Program-made: the position numbers and the translations under genes | NCBI GenBank assembly: GCA_905480225.1 | Contig: CAJQPO010000083.1 | Coordinates: 1-48,497 of the forward strand | Direction of reading: 5' to 3' | Source: an uncultured Flavobacteriales bacterium | GTDB lineage: Bacteria > Bacteroidota > Bacteroidia > Flavobacteriales_D > Parvicellaceae | Length of the DNA: 48,497 nt | Notes under the pieces: model-generated | Database searches by the model: none | What the model was told of the DNA's origin: nothing | The model's input: the letters and a program-made list of their open reading frames with translations, nothing else | Shown here: positions 32,179 through 42,291 of the stretch, one piece after another | Layout of the letters: every line of letters starts with the position of its first letter | Position numbering within the stretch: position 1 is the first letter of the stretch

Positions 32179-33111
32179 TTATAAATGCCAGAGATCGTGT
32201 TCTACAGTAAAAATTTCTTTCTTTATTTTCTCCGATTCTAAAAGTGCATCTACACCTTCAAATGTATTGTTGACTTTCCGATCATACACATTTGATTCTT
32301 TGTGAATATAACTCGAGTACATTTGTTTCCAGAACAAATCGTCATAAGACATTCTTCTTGCATCATTTTCAGAATTGTAAACAAAGAAGTTTTGGAAGAC
32401 ATAGCGACATTCTGGAAAGTATAGCCAAAACATAGTATTTAAAGCTTTGATATCTCCATTGTCATCCAAAGCATATCTTACTGGTGCAATTCCGATAATT
32501 CTTCTTTCTTGCACTCCTCTTTGCTTGTCAAAAAACCAATCTTCCTTCACGTAGTACTTGATAATTTGTTCAGATGTTATGTCCTCCTTCATTGTTGTAT
32601 CCATAGGATCACCATTATCATCATACCGCTCTAGACCATCATCGTCTAGTAGGGGTTCCGTCTTTATCGTAAAAAATAAGTTATCCAATTCTTCTTTATA
32701 AATCGGATCATCGGCATTTCCATTTGGCGGAACAAGTGGTAAATCAAACTGATCATTTGGCTGCGCAAAATCATCAATGGCCTTATATGGTGTTAATGAT
32801 TTTTCCACAAGCACCCCATATTTAATAACGTCCCACAATGACCTTCGATCCGAAATTGGTTGTGTCGGATAGGTTAAAGGATGGTTCTTTTTCTCTCGTA
32901 AATCGATGGTCCTCCAGATTCGTTTTGCCCATACAATGTCCGCTTCTCTTAAGGCTGTATATTGTATTACTCTCTTGGTTGGCACGTGTTCCTGCACGTA
33001 TACTCCATCCAATACGCCAGATTCTGACATACCTGAACTAGGTAATTGTGCGTTAGCTGAAACAAATGCAACAACCGTAAACGACACAGATATTATTTGC
33101 TTTAAATTCAT
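32179..33111 (-). CDS. gldN: T9SS ring protein GldN
   Basis: GldN (PorN) is a periplasmic component that binds GldK and forms the ring of the type IX secretion machine under the outer membrane. The 310-residue product has a signal peptide (ending SANAQ). It shows the family's central block (ADIVWAKRIWRTIDLREKKN, then HPLTYPTQ) and a C-terminal FWLYFPECRYVFQNFFVYN. It is the last gene of the gldKLMN run, 41 bases after gldM, and is followed by a terminator. No gldO duplicate is present. Confidence 0.95.
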   Translation of the reverse strand: MNLKQIISVSFTVVAFVSANAQLPSSGMSESGVLDGVYVQEHVPTKRVIQYTALREADIVWAKRIWRTIDLREKKNHPLTYPTQPISDRRSLWDVIKYGVLVEKSLTPYKAIDDFAQPNDQFDLPLVPPNGNADDPIYKEELDNLFFTIKTEPLLDDDGLERYDDNGDPMDTTMKEDITSEQIIKYYVKEDWFFDKQRGVQERRIIGIAPVRYALDDNGDIKALNTMFWLYFPECRYVFQNFFVYNSENDARRMSYDDLFWKQMYSSYIHKESNVYDRKVNNTFEGVDALLESEKIKKEIFTVEHDLWHL

Positions 33112-33152: not shown

Positions 33153-35009
33153 CTATAATACTTTGAAAATTAGTGAAGGAATCTTTTTAGCCTTGCCTTT
33201 TGGACCTTGAGCCCAAACATCTTCTATATATAATTTTTGTCCTTTTTTTAACCCTTTTAAATAATTTTGAGCTTTGCCAGAAAGACGTTCACCTTTACAT
33301 TTGGCTTCAGCTACTTCTCCATTCTTCACAATACTGACCGTAAACTTGGTAATCTTAAATTTAACATTCAATGGAGAACCTTTCAATTCAGCCAATAATT
33401 TCTTGGCCTGTTTGATTTTACCAATACTTACAGTACTTTCAGTAACTCCGGCACCTACTATCAATGGCGTTGGAGAAGGCAATCTTTTAATCCTAAATTC
33501 TTGTCTCGCAATTTCTGCTTTTTTACCATCCGCTGCTATTCCCGTTACTACAATAGTTGCTTTTTTACCAGTCTTAACAGAAGCAATATAGTTCCCGTCT
33601 CCTTTTTTGGATAAGGAACAACCACTACAAGAAGCTTCGACACTTGGATAACCTGATCCAGAAGCCTGAATTTGATTGTCATAGTTAATATACAATACAT
33701 TCATCTCCGTATTCGCAACAACTCCAGTAGGCGTTCCAACTGTGTAATCAAAATTCCAATCTTTCCACTTTTTACCACCATTTTCTTCAACTTCAATCTG
33801 GCCGTATACGAAATGTTTACCCGCACCTTTATCAGCACCTAAACCGAGTTTTCTAGTCGCTTCTCCTTCAAATAGAATAGGATCACCACTTCTGGTTGAA
33901 TCTTCTTCCCAATACCTTAATTTTAAATCCTGAGTCGAATCATAAGCTGCTATCATAACACTTAATCCTAATGAATCACCTTGATTGATGTAACCCTTAT
34001 TAGCAAAAGCTAATGGCTCAATTTTGTTAAAGTTAAACTTAGGTTTCTCCGTCTTATCTGCAATCATCGCAATGGCAATGCTTTCTGCTCTTTGAACATC
34101 CCCTTTCAAGGAGGTAAATAAAGCTCCAGAAGCTACAATAGGCGAATGATTAAATACGCCCGCTAACCAGGGTTGTGTTTCTCCGTGGTTATCGATAAAA
34201 TCAACAGGGGTTAAAATCTTGTAGATTTGCTTAATTCGCGCCGAATCTGCTGGATTTACAGTGGCTAAGGCCTCTGTAATTGCCGCATCAAAAACCGCCT
34301 GGTCTTCAGAGCTAGCTGAATTTAAGGTTGCGGTAACTTCAGGGAAGTTCCATGTTTTTGGTTCCCCTTTGTAGATATCGTCATAATTAGCAATCTCCGC
34401 AATTAAAGAATCACGAAAATTCTGTAATGTCGATATAATTTCAAGTCCACCTTCAACAGGACTCTGAAAATTATCACCTACAAACAAACGAGTCGGAGTA
34501 TCATAATCATCCTTTTTTGCTAAATGCATCATCGATGCTAAATGATAATATCCCCTTTCATCTACATAATAATAAGACTGTGCACCATCTTTGTCTGGCA
34601 CCAATTCATTGTGATGCTCTGCACCGTAATGTCCCAGTGTCCTGGCTAAATCAGCTGAAGCAGGATCTGCCTGCATAATCATATATGATGTTCTGTCAAC
34701 CATGTAATTGGCCGTTCTTTTTGACATATCAACCACATGATGTAAACGATCAATTAAATCTTTTTGCTTTTCAATTTTAGCAGGCGGAATAGCCGGATCT
34801 AATTTCATTTCTTCAAGCGCCATTTCTGCTGTACTCACCTTGCCGTAAATGTCTTTCATGGTAAGCTGATTACCATCTTCCATTTTTCTGTCAAGCGTCA
34901 CAAAAGCATTAATGATTTCCTTGGATACATTCATTGCCAACATAGCCATGAGTACCAAGTACATGAGTCCAATCATCTTCTGCCGTGGGGTTTCTTTGCC
35001 TCCTCCCAT
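33153..35009 (-). CDS. gldM: T9SS/gliding motor protein GldM (long form)
   Basis: GldM spans the periplasm with a single N-terminal helix (MIGLMYLVLMAMLAMNVS, about 12-29) and forms the stalk of the GldLM motor that powers secretion and gliding. The start MGGGKETPRQKM is typical. The periplasmic part fits the four-domain (D1-D4) arrangement, ending in an IPSLIFKVL strand. At 618 residues it is about 100 longer than Flavobacterium GldM or Porphyromonas PorM (about 515). The extra length appears to sit in the first 300 periplasmic residues (for example DEDQ-rich and NPADSARIKQIYKILTP segments). It lies 59 bases after gldL. Confidence 0.95.
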   Translation of the reverse strand: MGGGKETPRQKMIGLMYLVLMAMLAMNVSKEIINAFVTLDRKMEDGNQLTMKDIYGKVSTAEMALEEMKLDPAIPPAKIEKQKDLIDRLHHVVDMSKRTANYMVDRTSYMIMQADPASADLARTLGHYGAEHHNELVPDKDGAQSYYYVDERGYYHLASMMHLAKKDDYDTPTRLFVGDNFQSPVEGGLEIISTLQNFRDSLIAEIANYDDIYKGEPKTWNFPEVTATLNSASSEDQAVFDAAITEALATVNPADSARIKQIYKILTPVDFIDNHGETQPWLAGVFNHSPIVASGALFTSLKGDVQRAESIAIAMIADKTEKPKFNFNKIEPLAFANKGYINQGDSLGLSVMIAAYDSTQDLKLRYWEEDSTRSGDPILFEGEATRKLGLGADKGAGKHFVYGQIEVEENGGKKWKDWNFDYTVGTPTGVVANTEMNVLYINYDNQIQASGSGYPSVEASCSGCSLSKKGDGNYIASVKTGKKATIVVTGIAADGKKAEIARQEFRIKRLPSPTPLIVGAGVTESTVSIGKIKQAKKLLAELKGSPLNVKFKITKFTVSIVKNGEVAEAKCKGERLSGKAQNYLKGLKKGQKLYIEDVWAQGPKGKAKKIPSLIFKVL

Positions 35010-35068: not shown

Positions 35069-35896
35069 TTAATCTCTTCCAACATTCATGGCAGATAACA
35101 TGTTACCATAAACTGTGTTAAGTGCAGATAAGTTCTTACTAAGTTCACCCATAGTTTCTTTATACATTCTTGTATCATCAATAGATCCGTGGAGGTTACC
35201 CATTAATTCATTAATACCGGAATACATTTGCTCTGTTGCTTCTAAGTGCTCTGAGGCACCTTTCAATTGCATTTCATAAACATTATTTAAAGCCGCCAAA
35301 TTTCCAGAGACTTTTTCCATTTGCTCCCCAACTGCATCACTACTGGCTTTTGCATTTGTTAAACCGGTTAAAGATTCAGAAGCAGAGTCATATGCTTCAG
35401 ACAATTGTCCCATTTTCGCTGAGGCGCCTTCCAAACTCTCAATGTAATTATTTGTTGCTGTTGATGCACCTGACACCTCACCTAATTGGCTGGCATTATC
35501 GCTCAATGCTTTCATTCCTACACCAAGACTTTCAATTAGTTCTGGTTCTATCTTGGCATCTGCCAACATCGTATCCAATTGCTCAGTTAATGATAAATCA
35601 TCACCTAAATCATCTAATGATTCTGGCAATTCATCCAATCCTTGGTCAGAATGACCCATTGCTAATTCAGGATAAACCAATGCCCAGTCAGGATCAGCAT
35701 GCAAAGGTTCAAATGCCGAGATAAAAAAGATTGCTGCTTCCGTCAACAAACCAAACGTTAGCCAAAATCCGGCGCCTGGTAAGTGCAGTATTTTAAACAA
35801 TGCTCCAATAATTACGATGGCTCCACCCCAACCGTAAACAAACTTCATTATGTTCTTAAATTTTCTACTCTCGAAAAAACTTCCTCCTGAACTCAT
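35069..35896 (-). CDS. gldL: T9SS/gliding motor protein GldL (long form)
   Basis: GldL forms the inner-membrane pentamer of the motor. Two helices (about 18-36 and 43-62) are present. The second carries Glu53 in FGLLTEAAIFF, matching the membrane glutamate that is needed for proton-driven motor function in Flavobacterium GldL. The cytoplasmic tail is long, Ala/Ser/Glu-rich and helical (about residues 90-270), giving 275 residues against about 215 in F. johnsoniae. It lies between gldK and gldM. Confidence 0.95.
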   Translation of the reverse strand: MSSGGSFFESRKFKNIMKFVYGWGGAIVIIGALFKILHLPGAGFWLTFGLLTEAAIFFISAFEPLHADPDWALVYPELAMGHSDQGLDELPESLDDLGDDLSLTEQLDTMLADAKIEPELIESLGVGMKALSDNASQLGEVSGASTATNNYIESLEGASAKMGQLSEAYDSASESLTGLTNAKASSDAVGEQMEKVSGNLAALNNVYEMQLKGASEHLEATEQMYSGINELMGNLHGSIDDTRMYKETMGELSKNLSALNTVYGNMLSAMNVGRD

Positions 35897-35990: not shown

Positions 35991-37469
35991 TTAATTGATA
36001 TCACCACTTTTATTTACACCTCCTCGACCAAGATAGCTCATAACACACCTATATCCCACATAACACTTAGCAGAATCCTGGTACTCGTATGTTCTTGATC
36101 CAGTTTGTAAATAATATCCTATGTCTTTCCAAGATCCACCTCTTATTACTTTTCTTTTCATTGAAGGTGGGTCATGATCTAATGCATGGTACTTATACTC
36201 TGGTGCTAAATCATGAGAAAATTCATACATAGACTCATCATATGCGGTACTTGTCCATTCTGCAACATTACCTGCCATACAGTATAATCCATAATCGTTA
36301 GGATGGTACGAAGTGACATTTACGGTATAAAATCCACCATCTTCGAAGTACCTTCCACGCATGGGTTTGAAATTTCCTAAAAAGCATCCGCGAGCATTTC
36401 TTATATAAGGTCCTCCCCAAGGATAAGGAGACAAATCTAATCCTCCTCTGGCAGCATATTCCCATTCCGCTTCGGTTGGCAATCTGAAATCTTGCACATA
36501 ACTTTCCCAATTATAATGACGCCAAGTATTAAGCAATTGCGTTCTCCAAACACAAAATGCATTTGCTTGTTGCCAAGTAACCCCGACAACTGGATAGGCA
36601 TCATAAGCTGGGTGCCAGAAATACATATTTGTCATTGGTTCATTATAAGAATACGAGAAATCGTGAACCCACGTAAGTGTATCGGGGTAAACGTTAATTA
36701 CTTCGTGAATAATGAATCGCTTCCTGTCATCATGGCCTCTTATCGAATTATGTTGACCTTTAGTGTTTCTAAATCCTAAATCTAAATCGCGTCCTCTATA
36801 AATAGGTGGTTCTTCCGTATCAACAGGAAAAGGCATTTCACCATTTTTCATCACTTTCCTGTGATCATCATCTGCTTCAGCCTCGTTATTAGATAACTTT
36901 TTGATCAATGGCCTACCTTTTACAGCGGCCTCTTGCCAATCAATCCAAAAATATTCAAATTTTAATTTCCGAACATCAATGACTCTTCTTGAATAATATC
37001 TTTGTGTTTCAGGAAGATATAACTCACCTAGAATCGCCATCTGTTCTTCATCCAACCTTCCCATATTGGCTCTTGGATTTAAATTCCATTCCGATTGATC
37101 TTTTTCCTCCCCATCATCATCGTAAGCTGGAATTAAGAATGTTTCAGGATCAGTTTCAGCAACCATTTCTCTTGAAATCGAATCAAACACCCAATCAACA
37201 AACTGCCGATATTCATTATTCTCAATTTCCGTTTGATCCATATAAAAGGCCGGTATCGAAACCGTCTTGGACCTTGTATAATGGGCAAATGGCACATCCT
37301 GATCACTCTGACCCATATTATAACTACCTGCTGGTATATATAACATACCATATGGATCTGGCATAAACCAAGGTGCTCTTCCTGGGGATCCTAAAAGTTC
37401 TCCACGACTTCCGCCTGCACAGCTTCCTAGAAACAGAACAACGGCTAAGAAATACAACGTTTTTTTCAT
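35991..37469 (-). CDS. gldK: T9SS/gliding lipoprotein GldK
   Basis: GldK (PorK) is an outer-membrane lipoprotein that forms the periplasmic ring with GldN. The signal peptide has a lipobox (FLGSC, Cys17). The rest is a formylglycine-generating-enzyme-like (SUMF) domain: YIPAGSYNMGQSDQD near the start, DQTEIENNEYRQFVDW, RLPTEAEWEYAARGG and a C-terminal GGSWKD...GYRCVMSYL. The family uses this fold structurally, not as an oxidase. At 492 residues it is typical. It follows porP after 105 bases. Confidence 0.95.
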   Translation of the reverse strand: MKKTLYFLAVVLFLGSCAGGSRGELLGSPGRAPWFMPDPYGMLYIPAGSYNMGQSDQDVPFAHYTRSKTVSIPAFYMDQTEIENNEYRQFVDWVFDSISREMVAETDPETFLIPAYDDDGEEKDQSEWNLNPRANMGRLDEEQMAILGELYLPETQRYYSRRVIDVRKLKFEYFWIDWQEAAVKGRPLIKKLSNNEAEADDDHRKVMKNGEMPFPVDTEEPPIYRGRDLDLGFRNTKGQHNSIRGHDDRKRFIIHEVINVYPDTLTWVHDFSYSYNEPMTNMYFWHPAYDAYPVVGVTWQQANAFCVWRTQLLNTWRHYNWESYVQDFRLPTEAEWEYAARGGLDLSPYPWGGPYIRNARGCFLGNFKPMRGRYFEDGGFYTVNVTSYHPNDYGLYCMAGNVAEWTSTAYDESMYEFSHDLAPEYKYHALDHDPPSMKRKVIRGGSWKDIGYYLQTGSRTYEYQDSAKCYVGYRCVMSYLGRGGVNKSGDIN

Positions 37470-37574: not shown

Positions 37575-38504
37575 TTATAAGAACCTCGGGTTCTTGTATT
37601 TTTGAACGGGCTCAGGCCTATCCAAATTAAAACAATAATTCAACATGATCTCATGCGACCCATTACTATAATTACTAAGCTTACTTGTGGTTACATCATA
37701 TGAGTAACCAATTTTCAACAATCCATCATTCCCTATAGGAGTTTGATAACCAATCATGGGAGCAACTGCATCAGCAATACGATAGCTTACGCCTGCCCAA
37801 ACCATGTTTCTAAACATAACGGACGCATTCACATCAATTTGTGTGGAGGACGCATCACTTTTAGCTAGAATACTTGGTTTCAACATCCAATCCCCAGTAA
37901 TACTATAATTATAACCAGCCATAATCCAATAGTGTCTAGCCGTTTGAATGTGTATATCTTTCAAATCTGATTGACTGATGTGCGTAGAGCTTAAACCCAT
38001 CCACAAATTATTAGCTTGGTAGAAAACGCCAATACTAAAATCTGGTGCTAAATCGTTTGAGCTTTGATCTGAAATTGAATTATCGGTATTCCAAGGTGTT
38101 CCATCCGGGGTTATCCAAGTCGCAGAAATATTTTTTGAAATTAAACCAACCGATGCTCCTATTCCCAATGTTCCTACACCTACAGATTTATGAAAAGAAT
38201 AGTGCAATCGTGCAATGTTATTCGTTTCAAAACCCAACTTATCATTGTAATAAGTCAATCCTAACCCTCCTCGAAGGACTTTAACAGGCATGTGAACATT
38301 TAACAAACCTGTTTTTGGAGCACCATCAAACTTTACCCATTGGTATCGACCAACGAAAGTCCCACAAATTGCATTATTTAATCCGGCATAACCTGGATTG
38401 ACACTTAGTTTATCAAACATGAAATGTGTCAATTGAACGTCTTGTTGAGCCATAGACGCAAATCCAACAGAACTCAACACAAGGGCTATTAAAATCTTCT
38501 TCAT
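37575..38504 (-). CDS. PorP/SprF family T9SS outer-membrane protein
   Basis: The 309-residue protein has a signal peptide (ending SMAQ) and the PorP/SprF opening DVQLTHFMFDKLSVNPGYAGL, then a beta-barrel-like alternation of aromatic and Gly residues to the C-terminus. SprF of F. johnsoniae supports secretion of the adhesin SprB, and PorP is a T9SS component; other members pair with partner adhesins. Which applies is not decided, so no symbol is given. Its place directly upstream of gldK on the same strand suggests a core PorP-like role. Confidence 0.9.
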   Translation of the reverse strand: MKKILIALVLSSVGFASMAQQDVQLTHFMFDKLSVNPGYAGLNNAICGTFVGRYQWVKFDGAPKTGLLNVHMPVKVLRGGLGLTYYNDKLGFETNNIARLHYSFHKSVGVGTLGIGASVGLISKNISATWITPDGTPWNTDNSISDQSSNDLAPDFSIGVFYQANNLWMGLSSTHISQSDLKDIHIQTARHYWIMAGYNYSITGDWMLKPSILAKSDASSTQIDVNASVMFRNMVWAGVSYRIADAVAPMIGYQTPIGNDGLLKIGYSYDVTTSKLSNYSNGSHEIMLNYCFNLDRPEPVQKYKNPRFL

Positions 38505-38551
38505 AGTTTTCTTTCAGTAATAAGTCGGTTTTTCCAATTTGTTACAATTCG

Positions 38552-38581
38552 CTAAAATAGACAAATTCTGTGGTTACTCAA
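38552..38581 (-). promoter_or_regulatory. Promoter of the porP-gldKLMN run
   Basis: On the minus strand TTG (38579-38581), a 19-base spacer and TATTTTAG (38552-38559; seven of eight) form a Bacteroidota promoter. The leader before the porP ATG at 38504 is about 40 bases. It is the only good promoter I see ahead of the T9SS genes. Confidence 0.5.
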
Positions 38582-38671
38582 AGGAATCCACCTAACATAA
38601 CGTTTTAAATCAAATTAAATCGAGCACAATATACTAAAAACGAGGGAAACCTGATTCATTACATAATAATG

Positions 38672-38749: not shown

Positions 38750-39916
38750 CTACCGGAGTTTTTGATAAGTCCTCCACCACAAATCAGGAACTATCCCTTT
38801 CGAAGCTTTCTGATAATCCTCATAGGAACAAGGTATCATGTGGTGCCTATCAAACTTAATTCTCTTATCAGGAGGGTAAGGCACCTCCATCCACCACCGG
38901 TCAGACTTATCCGACTTGTAGAAATTGACTTGATGATCAGTCCCCTCAATGGGAACCAAGTACTTTTTGTAATTTACTTTTGAACCAATAGGAAAATCCT
39001 TTTTCCGCTCACTGGCGCCTTCAAAAAAACACCAGATCATTTGAGAAACTAATTTTGCTCCAAATTTAGATTCATTAAAAATCGGATTATAATCAAATAT
39101 ACCCGCACAGGACACTTTATCGCTTATTCCTGCATACCTCATGATTTGACATATTTCCTCTCCATACAGTCCATTAGGTGAGGCATCTTCTCTTTCAAGT
39201 CCCAATTCAGAAAATCGCACAGAATTAATATTCACAGAAACTAAGTCAGCGTATCGCATAAGTGGTTCGGTCTTCTTAATGTCTGTTTGAATTTCACCTA
39301 ATCGGTGATAATCAAAATAGAGCTCATCCATTAATACAATTTCTGAAGGAGGTACAAGGTAGGTTTGATAGCCAATAGTGCTGTAATTAAATAAGTAATT
39401 AGGTTCATGTAAAATAATGTGATTGATGTAATTACCTGAATTAACTTCAGATGAGTAAGCGCCCATATTTAATCTTGAGTCTACAGCACAAACATTGACA
39501 GTCTGTTCTAATTTGCTGTAGGCTTTGTACGCGGCAAAACCAAGATCCCTCGATCCACCTAAAAATACTACTGTTTTGTTTTTTTTAATTATTTCGAAAA
39601 CAACATCTTCTACCGCCTTGTATGTATCCTGAATAGAGGCTCCCTGATAAATGTTTCCTAAATCAGCGATTTCAAGATCAAAATGTTTATACAAACGGTA
39701 GAGTTCTCTCCTAATTTCGGTAGGACCTTCTGCCGCCCCCATGTTTGATTCACTTGCTCGATCTTCCTGAACACCAAAAAAAACGACATCACAAGCAGAC
39801 CAGTCCGGAAAAGAATTATCTACATGAATATGGACCGATTGTCCAATAGTTTCCTGATGTAAATCATCAAAAAGATCCGAACTTATTGATTGAAAATAAA
39901 TAGAAATAGACGACAT
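38750..39916 (-). CDS. Arginase/formimidoylglutamase-fold pseudoenzyme
   Basis: The 388-residue protein has the ureohydrolase layout (VVFFGVQEDR...GAAEGPTEIRRELY...), but the metal-ligand motifs are destroyed. The GGDHS position reads GGSRD, DAHxD reads DSRLN, and SxDxD reads SVNIN. Only the first Asp of the second motif survives, so no binuclear manganese centre can form. A functional formimidoylglutamase is therefore unlikely, although pipelines give that name. It lies downstream of topA and upstream of porP-gldKLMN on the same strand. The long C-terminal part (WWMEVPYPPDKRIKFDRHH) is not a usual part of arginases. Confidence 0.8.
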   Translation of the reverse strand: MSSISIYFQSISSDLFDDLHQETIGQSVHIHVDNSFPDWSACDVVFFGVQEDRASESNMGAAEGPTEIRRELYRLYKHFDLEIADLGNIYQGASIQDTYKAVEDVVFEIIKKNKTVVFLGGSRDLGFAAYKAYSKLEQTVNVCAVDSRLNMGAYSSEVNSGNYINHIILHEPNYLFNYSTIGYQTYLVPPSEIVLMDELYFDYHRLGEIQTDIKKTEPLMRYADLVSVNINSVRFSELGLEREDASPNGLYGEEICQIMRYAGISDKVSCAGIFDYNPIFNESKFGAKLVSQMIWCFFEGASERKKDFPIGSKVNYKKYLVPIEGTDHQVNFYKSDKSDRWWMEVPYPPDKRIKFDRHHMIPCSYEDYQKASKGIVPDLWWRTYQKLR

Positions 39917-39938: not shown

Positions 39939-39967
39939 CAAATTTATAAATCAAAAAAGCCCCGCAA
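39939..39967 (-). promoter_or_regulatory. Promoter of the arginase-like gene, nested in the topA terminator
   Basis: TAAATTTG (minus, 39939-39946) is a perfect TAnnTTTG 22 bases before the ATG at 39916. TTG (39965-39967) lies 18 bases upstream, inside the 3' arm of the topA terminator. Confidence 0.45.
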
Positions 39968-39986
39968 TCGCAATTACAGGGCTTTT
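39953..39986 (-). terminator. Intrinsic terminator of topA
   Basis: On the minus strand AAAAGCCCTGTAAT pairs with ATTGCGGGGCTTTT around TGCG (14 bp with two G-U wobbles), followed by six Ts (39953-39958). Confidence 0.85.
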
Positions 39987-40005: not shown

Positions 40006-42291
40006 CTATTTTTCAGCAATTGCTAAGCAATCTTCTAATGATAAAGATTTTGGATCCGTGCCTTTTGGTATTCTGTGATTTTTCTTACCTATTTTAATGT
40101 ATGGTCCATACCGGCCATTCAACACCTGCACTTTAACATCCCCGTGCTCCCACTCATTAATAAATTTGTTTTTATCCGCTTCTATTTTTTCCTCAATTAG
40201 CACAATCGACCGGTCGAGTTCAATTGTCATTGGGTCGTCTCCATTTGCCTTTTTTATACTGATAAACGTGCCATCATACCTGATATATGGTCCGTATTTA
40301 CCTATACCAATTACCACCTCTTTTTCTTTGTAATCTCCCAAACTTCTTGGCAGCTCAAATAATTTTAGTGCTTCCTCTAACTGGATTGAATCAATACTTT
40401 GTCCAGTAATCATTGACGCAAATCTGGGTTTCTCTTCATCTTCCGTATTGCCAATCTGAACCATTGGACCAAATCGGCCAATCCTTGCTTTCACTGGTTT
40501 TCCGGACACTGGATCCTCACCAAGTATGCGTTCACCACTGGCCCTTGAGGATGTTTCTATCGTTGTTTCTACGCTCTTATGGAAGGGGTGATAAAAGTCG
40601 TTAATCATTTCCGTCCATTCCACAAGACCGTTAGCTATTTCATCAAACTGCTTCTCAACAGAAGCTGTGAAATTGTAATCCAGTATTTTATCAAAATGTT
40701 CTACTAGAAAATCATTTACAACTTTACCAATATCTGTCGGAGTAAGTTTATTTTTGTCGGCACCATAACGTTCGTTTCTAGATGATTTACTAATCACGTT
40801 ATTTTCCAATACTACTTCGGCTACCGTTCTTTCCTTTCCTTCTAAGTTGGTTTTGTCAACATAACCTCTTTTTTGGACGGTGCTAATGGTTGGTGCATAG
40901 GTCGAAGGTCTTCCGATTCCCAATTCCTCCATTTTCTTAACTAGACTGGCCTCAGTATACCTCGCTGGAGGACGAGTAAATCTTTGAATCGCTTTTATCG
41001 CATTGTAATCTAGCGATTCACCCTCTTGTAAGTTTGGAAGAATTCCTTTCTGATCCTCATCATCCTCATCATCTGATCCCTCTATATACACATTCAGAAA
41101 TCCATCAAATTTAATTACCTCACCATGACCCAAGAATACTTCTTCAAAACCAGAGCCAACAATTCTAACAGTAGTTCTTTCCAATTCTGCGTCTGCCATT
41201 TGAGAGGCCAAAGTTCGTTTCCAAATCAATTCATATAGTTTCTTTTCGGATGGATCTCCACCATCAATAGTATTCAAATTAAATTCCGTAGGTCTAATCG
41301 CTTCGTGTGCCTCTTGCGCCCCTTTATTTTTAGTTTGGTATTTTTTTGGATTAGCATATTCACCCCCAAAAGAGTTGACAATAACTTCCTTAGCTTGACT
41401 CAAGGCGTGATCAGAAAGATTCACCGAGTCTGTTCTCATGTATGTAATCTTCCCTGCTTCATAAAGCTTTTGAGCTACAGACATTGTTCGAGAAACGGAA
41501 TACCCAAGTTTTCTACTGGCTTCCTGCTGAAGTGTTGAAGTTGTGAAAGGTGCTGCTGGCGATTTTTTCCCCGGCCTTTTATCCAAAGAAGATATCGTAA
41601 AACTAGCACTAGCACATTGCTTAATGAACTTTTCCGCTTCTTCCTCATTTGGAAAGGATTTATTCAAATCTGCTTTGAAACTTTTACCATGACTAGGTGC
41701 AAATTCACCATAAACTTTAAATGACGATTTTGGTTCAAATTGGTTAATACTTCGGTCCTTCTCTACAATCAATCTGACTGCAACAGATTGTACTCGCCCT
41801 GCAGATAAGGACGGTTTCACTTTCCTCCATAAAACTGGACTCAATTCGAAACCAACCAATCGATCTAGTACTCTTCTAGCTTGTTGAGCATTCACAAGAT
41901 CTACATTAATAGCTCGTGGATTTTCAATCGCTTTAACAACTGCCGACTTTGTTATTTCATTAAAAGTGATTCTTTTTGTTTTGTCATCTGATAGTTTTAA
42001 AGTCTCGTATAAATGCCAAGAAATAGCTTCACCTTCTCGATCCTCATCCGTTGCTAACCAAACCATTTCAGCTGATTTTGCAAGCTTTTTAAGCTCCGCC
42101 ACAACCGTTTTTTTATCCGAAGAAATAGCGTAGTCAAGCTTAAAATTATTTTCCACATCAATTGCCAGACCTTTTTTTGCTAGATCTCTAACATGACCAA
42201 AGCTTGACTTAACAACAAAGTCCTTTCCCAGATACCCTTCTATCGTCTTTGCTTTTGCAGGTGACTCAACAATCACTAAATTCTTTGCCAT
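40006..42291 (-). CDS. topA: DNA topoisomerase I
   Basis: TopA relaxes negative supercoils by breaking one strand. The N-terminal Toprim domain begins LVIVESPAKAKTIEGYLG, with TDEDREGEAISWH, and the active-site tyrosine is in KITYMRTDSVN (about Y284). The C-terminus has no four-cysteine zinc ribbons; instead it has three topoisomerase C-terminal repeats with the R/K-F/Y-G-P motif (RFGPMVQIG, KYGPYIRYD, RYGPYIKIG), as in other Bacteroidota. At 761 residues it is normal. It diverges from miaB over about 200 bases. Confidence 0.96.
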   Translation of the reverse strand: MAKNLVIVESPAKAKTIEGYLGKDFVVKSSFGHVRDLAKKGLAIDVENNFKLDYAISSDKKTVVAELKKLAKSAEMVWLATDEDREGEAISWHLYETLKLSDDKTKRITFNEITKSAVVKAIENPRAINVDLVNAQQARRVLDRLVGFELSPVLWRKVKPSLSAGRVQSVAVRLIVEKDRSINQFEPKSSFKVYGEFAPSHGKSFKADLNKSFPNEEEAEKFIKQCASASFTISSLDKRPGKKSPAAPFTTSTLQQEASRKLGYSVSRTMSVAQKLYEAGKITYMRTDSVNLSDHALSQAKEVIVNSFGGEYANPKKYQTKNKGAQEAHEAIRPTEFNLNTIDGGDPSEKKLYELIWKRTLASQMADAELERTTVRIVGSGFEEVFLGHGEVIKFDGFLNVYIEGSDDEDDEDQKGILPNLQEGESLDYNAIKAIQRFTRPPARYTEASLVKKMEELGIGRPSTYAPTISTVQKRGYVDKTNLEGKERTVAEVVLENNVISKSSRNERYGADKNKLTPTDIGKVVNDFLVEHFDKILDYNFTASVEKQFDEIANGLVEWTEMINDFYHPFHKSVETTIETSSRASGERILGEDPVSGKPVKARIGRFGPMVQIGNTEDEEKPRFASMITGQSIDSIQLEEALKLFELPRSLGDYKEKEVVIGIGKYGPYIRYDGTFISIKKANGDDPMTIELDRSIVLIEEKIEADKNKFINEWEHGDVKVQVLNGRYGPYIKIGKKNHRIPKGTDPKSLSLEDCLAIAEK

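Follow-up and report, generated by a model that had tools for sequence, protein, structure and literature searches.

A predicted arginase-fold pseudoenzyme family encoded beside topA and porP-gldKLMN in the class Bacteroidia

Genes and signals at the locus

The window, i.e. the whole 48,497 nt of contig CAJQPO010000083.1 (GCA_905480225.1) from an uncultured Flavobacteriales bacterium of the Parvicellaceae, carries on its minus strand the gene order topA, ALP, porP, gldK, gldL, gldM and gldN. ALP, the arginase-fold protein that is the subject here, is encoded by an intact frame of 388 codons for amino acids at exactly 38750-39916, and the initial annotation was right in describing it as a full-length gene upstream of porP-gldKLMN. 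Each of the neighbors was identified by a family HMM, namely topA (40006-42291) on the one side and porP/sprF (37575-38504; TIGR03519, 232 bits), gldK (35991-37469; TIGR03525, 574 bits), gldL (35069-35896; TIGR03513, 235 bits), gldM (33153-35009; TIGR03517, 239 bits) and gldN (32179-33111; TIGR03523, 206 bits) on the other, all on the minus strand. Two signals on the same strand were found in the flanking gaps: a hairpin resembling an intrinsic terminator in the topA-ALP gap (39955-39986), and a Bacteroidota-type promoter of porP-gldKLMN, TTTG-N19-TATTTTAGC, between ALP and porP (38551-38582).

Fold, domains and cellular location

That ALP has an arginase fold, as first proposed, agrees with both sequence and model. 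Residues 43-207 match the Pfam Arginase domain (PF00491) above its cut-off (E 8.6e-15), and the AlphaFold2 model, built on an alignment of 67 homologues, has a mean pLDDT of 94.5 and a pTM of 0.93. Over residues 19-305 its best structural match is the Trypanosoma cruzi formiminoglutamase (Z 36.6, rmsd 2.0, 277 residues), while the Foldseek list was headed by metformin hydrolase. Model and Pfam match together place ALP in the ureohydrolase (arginase) superfamily with its three-layer alpha-beta-alpha fold, the core comprising residues 42-304 (39005-39793, minus strand). The best curated NCBIfam family is hutG (TIGR01227; E 8.2e-21), but at 74.5 bits ALP falls far short of the equivalog threshold of 229 bits. 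Hydropathy revealed no transmembrane or signal segment, the best 19-residue mean being 0.78, and ALP should therefore be cytosolic.

Beyond the core lies an extra stretch of about 84 residues (305-388; 38753-39004, minus strand) with the conserved pattern F..S....RWW...P...PC.Y.DY..A....PD.W. Modelled alone it reached a pLDDT of 81.9. A PDB sequence search with this domain gave no significant match, and structure searches returned at best E 2.6 (Foldseek) and Z 4.7 (VIA), values at which a known fold is still possible. Each of 60 genomes of the class carried a single copy of the domain, located in ALP; the one deviation was a weak stray match in genome G475. The domain is unique to the ALP family.

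Loss of the metal site

The initial annotation held that five of the six manganese ligands are replaced, in the motifs GGSRD (residues 120-124; 39545-39559), DSRLN (146-150; 39467-39481) and SVNIN (227-231; 39224-39238), all on the minus strand. Alignment with rat arginase I leads to the same count: H101 corresponds to R123, H126 to R148, D128 to N150, D232 to N229 and D234 to N231, and only D124 is kept, as D146. The resulting string, R-D-R-N-N-N in place of H-D-H-D-D-D, is common to three sampled members of the window's genus. With these ligands replaced, binuclear hydrolysis by ALP would be excluded on established arginase chemistry.

Homologues were compared in a set of 172, which takes in a few near-duplicate loci from the same genomes. 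None has the full six-ligand set, and the typical member has lost three ligands, not five. Common to the family is the loss of H126 and D234, which in arginase I form the B-metal half of the site. One homologue has H126 and five have D234, in no case alongside the rest, and none has a complete B site. At the other positions D146 is kept in 161 and D229 in 158 homologues, position 150 holds D in 145 homologues and N in 18, and position 123, equivalent to H101, has Q in 129 and His in 20, as against R in the window protein. According to a quick tree, in which many forks are weakly supported, His at position 123 is commoner in basal branches, and breakage of the A site is scattered across the family, the window's genus included. 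The claim that all catalytic motifs are gone thus stands for this genus but not for its orthologues, most of which retain an A-site-like cluster; shared are the loss of H126 and D234, whereas the near-total loss is genus-specific. No gldK-adjacent orthologue had intact GGDHS and DAHxD motifs.

One family (f16) has a pattern of its own. In its five loci (L149-L151, L171, L172) the A-site Asp residues are lost and an Asp is kept at the D234 position (NSISND); the C-terminal domain is diverged, and topA is near in four of the five.

The retained cluster, which in 153 of the 172 homologues reads [QHN]-D-x-[DN]-D across the A site and has His in 20, counts against a purely non-hydrolytic reading, as it could hold one metal and allow some chemistry. 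ALP might then be an enzyme with changed chemistry, in which the cluster binds a single metal or new residues catalyze another reaction, and the core polar residues R69, D85 and Q184, invariant in ALP and also found in HutG, would fit such a role. This seems rather improbable to us, for several branches, among them the window's genus with its RDRNNN, have a broken A site and yet show no signs of decay, and H126 and D234 are never kept together.

Selection and probable origin from HutG

Comparison with a congener gave a dN/dS of 0.037 for ALP, next to 0.020 for topA and 0.029 for porP. Such strong purifying selection means that ALP is not a decaying pseudogene, and with the frame intact a pseudogene or frameshift was rejected. 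The earlier description of a selected protein lacking an intact binuclear metal site thereby holds.

Outside the family, the closest relatives (L163-L166) carry the ligands H/N-D-H-D(N)-D-D and adjoin, or lie near, a HutI-like amidohydrolase gene; the three that were scanned (L163, L164 and L165) score 199-211 bits on the HutG model. Genome G061 encodes a complete HutG (293 bits) in addition to ALP. R69, D85, G120-G121 and Q184 are invariant in ALP and common to HutG, while R53, F201, R205, E217, P218, R221, C256 and W295, together with the C-terminal set, are near-invariant in ALP and different in HutG. Because of the HutG-type relatives, the G061 pair, the new near-invariant residues and the low dN/dS, the family appears to be a neofunctionalized HutG paralogue and not a product of decay.

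A non-catalytic role could also be that of a subunit paired with an active ureohydrolase paralogue. For this there is an exact precedent in MetCb, which has five of six ligands mutated and pairs with MetCa (PMC11271267). In most of the sampled genomes at least two PF00491 genes occur, and that of the window encodes a separate arginase (L227; G000:C73:1204-2100) whose metal motifs are all intact (GDHS, DAHAD and DVD). Nevertheless, such pairing would be very unlikely for ALP, as no active ureohydrolase adjoins it at the loci examined, the 95% complete genome G486 has no second PF00491 gene, and the type of potential partner varies between genomes.

Gene neighborhood and transcription signals

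With one genome taken from each of 40 families, the block topA-ALP-porP-gldKLM was found in 22, topA only in two, gldK only in two and neither in 14, a count limited by contig ends in some genomes. Over all loci, both topA and gldK were present in 66, topA without gldK in 13, gldK without topA in two and neither in 47, the rest being cut off. The linkage is consequently old and broad, with topA as the steadier neighbor, although the basal ALP branches have neither gene nearby. Other conserved neighbors were only lineage-specific. In the 66 full-block loci topA and ALP are separated by a median of 42 nt, and in 29 of them the gap is at most 30 nt or the genes overlap; between ALP and the type IX secretion system (T9SS) genes the median is 136 nt, and one locus has a gap of at most 30 nt.

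The promoter motif TAnnTTAGC was found upstream of porP in 42 of 61 loci (0.8 expected), and the longer form TTTG-N17-21-TAnnTTAG in 34 (0.4 expected), whereas neither occurs upstream of ALP in any of 66 loci. More than half of the 61 loci thus have the Bacteroidota-type promoter TTTG-N17-21-TAnnTTAGC(G) ahead of porP-gldKLMN, which marks it as deeply conserved. It was rejected as a T9SS-specific signal: genome-wide the pattern occurs at or below chance, also before unrelated genes, and is therefore no mark of a regulon by itself. A single operon for ALP and the T9SS genes is disfavored by the gap lengths and the porP promoter. On the topA side, the hairpin in the window genome is strong, whereas many relatives have topA and ALP overlapping; ALP may thus be its own transcription unit here, and coupling to topA is not universal.

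Two families deviate from the common configuration. At five loci of f17 (L162, L167, L168, L175, L176) the block lacks both porP and the TTAGC promoter, and ALP comes immediately before gldK. In three of f18 (L153, L154, L156) a very diverged ALP gene lies tail to tail with a Mur ligase gene, away from gldKLMN, beside a GldK-like gene, probably GldJ, and in two of the three also near a weak PorP-like gene.

Distribution and co-occurrence with the T9SS

Among 177 genomes of class Bacteroidia, each at least 95% complete, 169 have ALP and 171 have GldL. Both are present in 167, ALP only in two (95%-complete assemblies from otherwise positive families), GldL only in four, and neither in four, three of which come from one family (f22). 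The co-occurrence that the initial annotation named as a check is thus strong (Fisher p 2.6e-5, uncorrected for kinship), and it is so because both genes are near-universal in the class; the T9SS-negative Bacteroidia sampled here stem from few independent losses. Beyond the class the matches were weaker and of the HutG/arginase-like kind only.

Altogether seven genomes with GldL proved to lack ALP, namely G404, G466, G451 and G586 and the three of f21 (G247, G306 and G428); the other lineages concerned are f23, f81 and, within f22, genus g78. ALP therefore does not accompany the T9SS everywhere. Nor is it confined to T9SS-bearing genomes, as the 99% complete G416, the one clear case, has ALP without GldK and GldL.

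These data bear on whether ALP is a cytosolic accessory factor of the T9SS or of the gliding motor, e.g. by binding the cytoplasmic part of GldL. The linkage to porP-gldKLMN in 22 of the 40 families together with topA, and to gldK in two more without it, speaks for this, as do the f17 loci with ALP directly ahead of gldK and the GldL co-occurrence with its uncorrected p value. The linkage spans many families, a breadth beyond what random gene order would be expected to leave, which counts against a merely inherited arrangement. However, ALP is missing from T9SS-bearing lineages and kept in G416, porP has a separate conserved promoter, topA is retained without gldK far more often than the reverse (13 loci versus two), and GldK, GldN and PorP are envelope proteins while ALP is cytosolic. 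A direct T9SS role is therefore possible but disfavored, and we consider the accessory factor unlikely. As T9SS-bearing lineages exist without ALP, G416 has ALP without GldK and GldL, the close gaps are on the topA side and porP has its own promoter, the link of ALP to the T9SS is positional and not obligatory. Its place ahead of porP-gldKLMN is best read as inherited gene order and not as membership of the secretion machine. Of the initial proposal of a selected non-enzymatic role, perhaps in secretion or gliding, the selection, the site loss and the gldKLMN linkage hold up; the tie to secretion or gliding is unsupported beyond gene order, given the seven ALP-negative genomes with GldL, G416 and the basal loci far from gldK.

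A model for ALP function

ALP is best read as a near-universal gene of core physiology in the class, situated beside topA and often operon-close to it. In the reading we hold to be probable, if only just, it is a cytosolic HutG paralogue specific to class Bacteroidia, in which binuclear metal hydrolysis has been abandoned in favor of a binding or scaffold function. The B-metal ligands are lost family-wide; the acidic A-site cluster is retained in most lineages and lost again in several, including the window's genus. The old pocket may now bind a ligand or serve structure, and the new residues may form a partner-binding surface with the C-terminal domain. A metal-free or one-metal binding role is suggested because pocket residues are kept, new invariant residues have arisen and the C-terminal domain is unique.

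By gene position alone, topA would be the suggested partner. A more specific version seems unlikely to us: ALP, derived from HutG and with a C-terminal domain that yielded no known fold, would be a sensor or adaptor relaying a small-molecule signal to a partner, which might be topoisomerase I or the T9SS motor on its cytoplasmic side.

ALP matches only hut/arginase models, although nearly every member of the class keeps the gene. As the metal site that these enzymes need is lost, an enzymatic name would probably be wrong. The unique C-terminal domain and the conserved position between topA and the T9SS genes make the function directly testable.

Comparison with known systems

In open-licence papers we found none on ALP, nor any tying its gene to the T9SS. 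What appears to be new here is a class-wide Bacteroidia family of putative arginase-fold pseudoenzymes with a unique domain. To the short list of arginase-fold pseudoenzymes for which some role is known, it adds one that is deeply conserved.

Four systems can be compared with it. The T9SS core operon porP-gldKLMN shares a conserved neighborhood with ALP in many Bacteroidia families, but it has its own promoter and no protein features in common with ALP, and neither gene set requires the other. HutG (TIGR01227) resembles ALP in fold, in being the top HMM and structural match, and in the invariant R69, D85, G120-G121 and Q184; ALP differs in the B site lost in all homologues, the far-sub-threshold score, the extra C-terminal domain and the lack of hut neighbors. 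MetCb (MfmB), the inactive subunit of metformin hydrolase, likewise has an arginase fold with five of six ligands mutated, and is the binding partner of the active MetCa (PMC11271267). Unlike ALP, it has an adjacent active partner, no such C-terminal domain has been described for it and it occurs in different bacteria. Lastly, the arginase-like protein of Trypanosoma brucei (Hai et al. 2015, as cited in PMC11271267) is described as an arginase relative without the binuclear manganese cluster; it is eukaryotic, and by that description ALP resembles it in lacking such a cluster.
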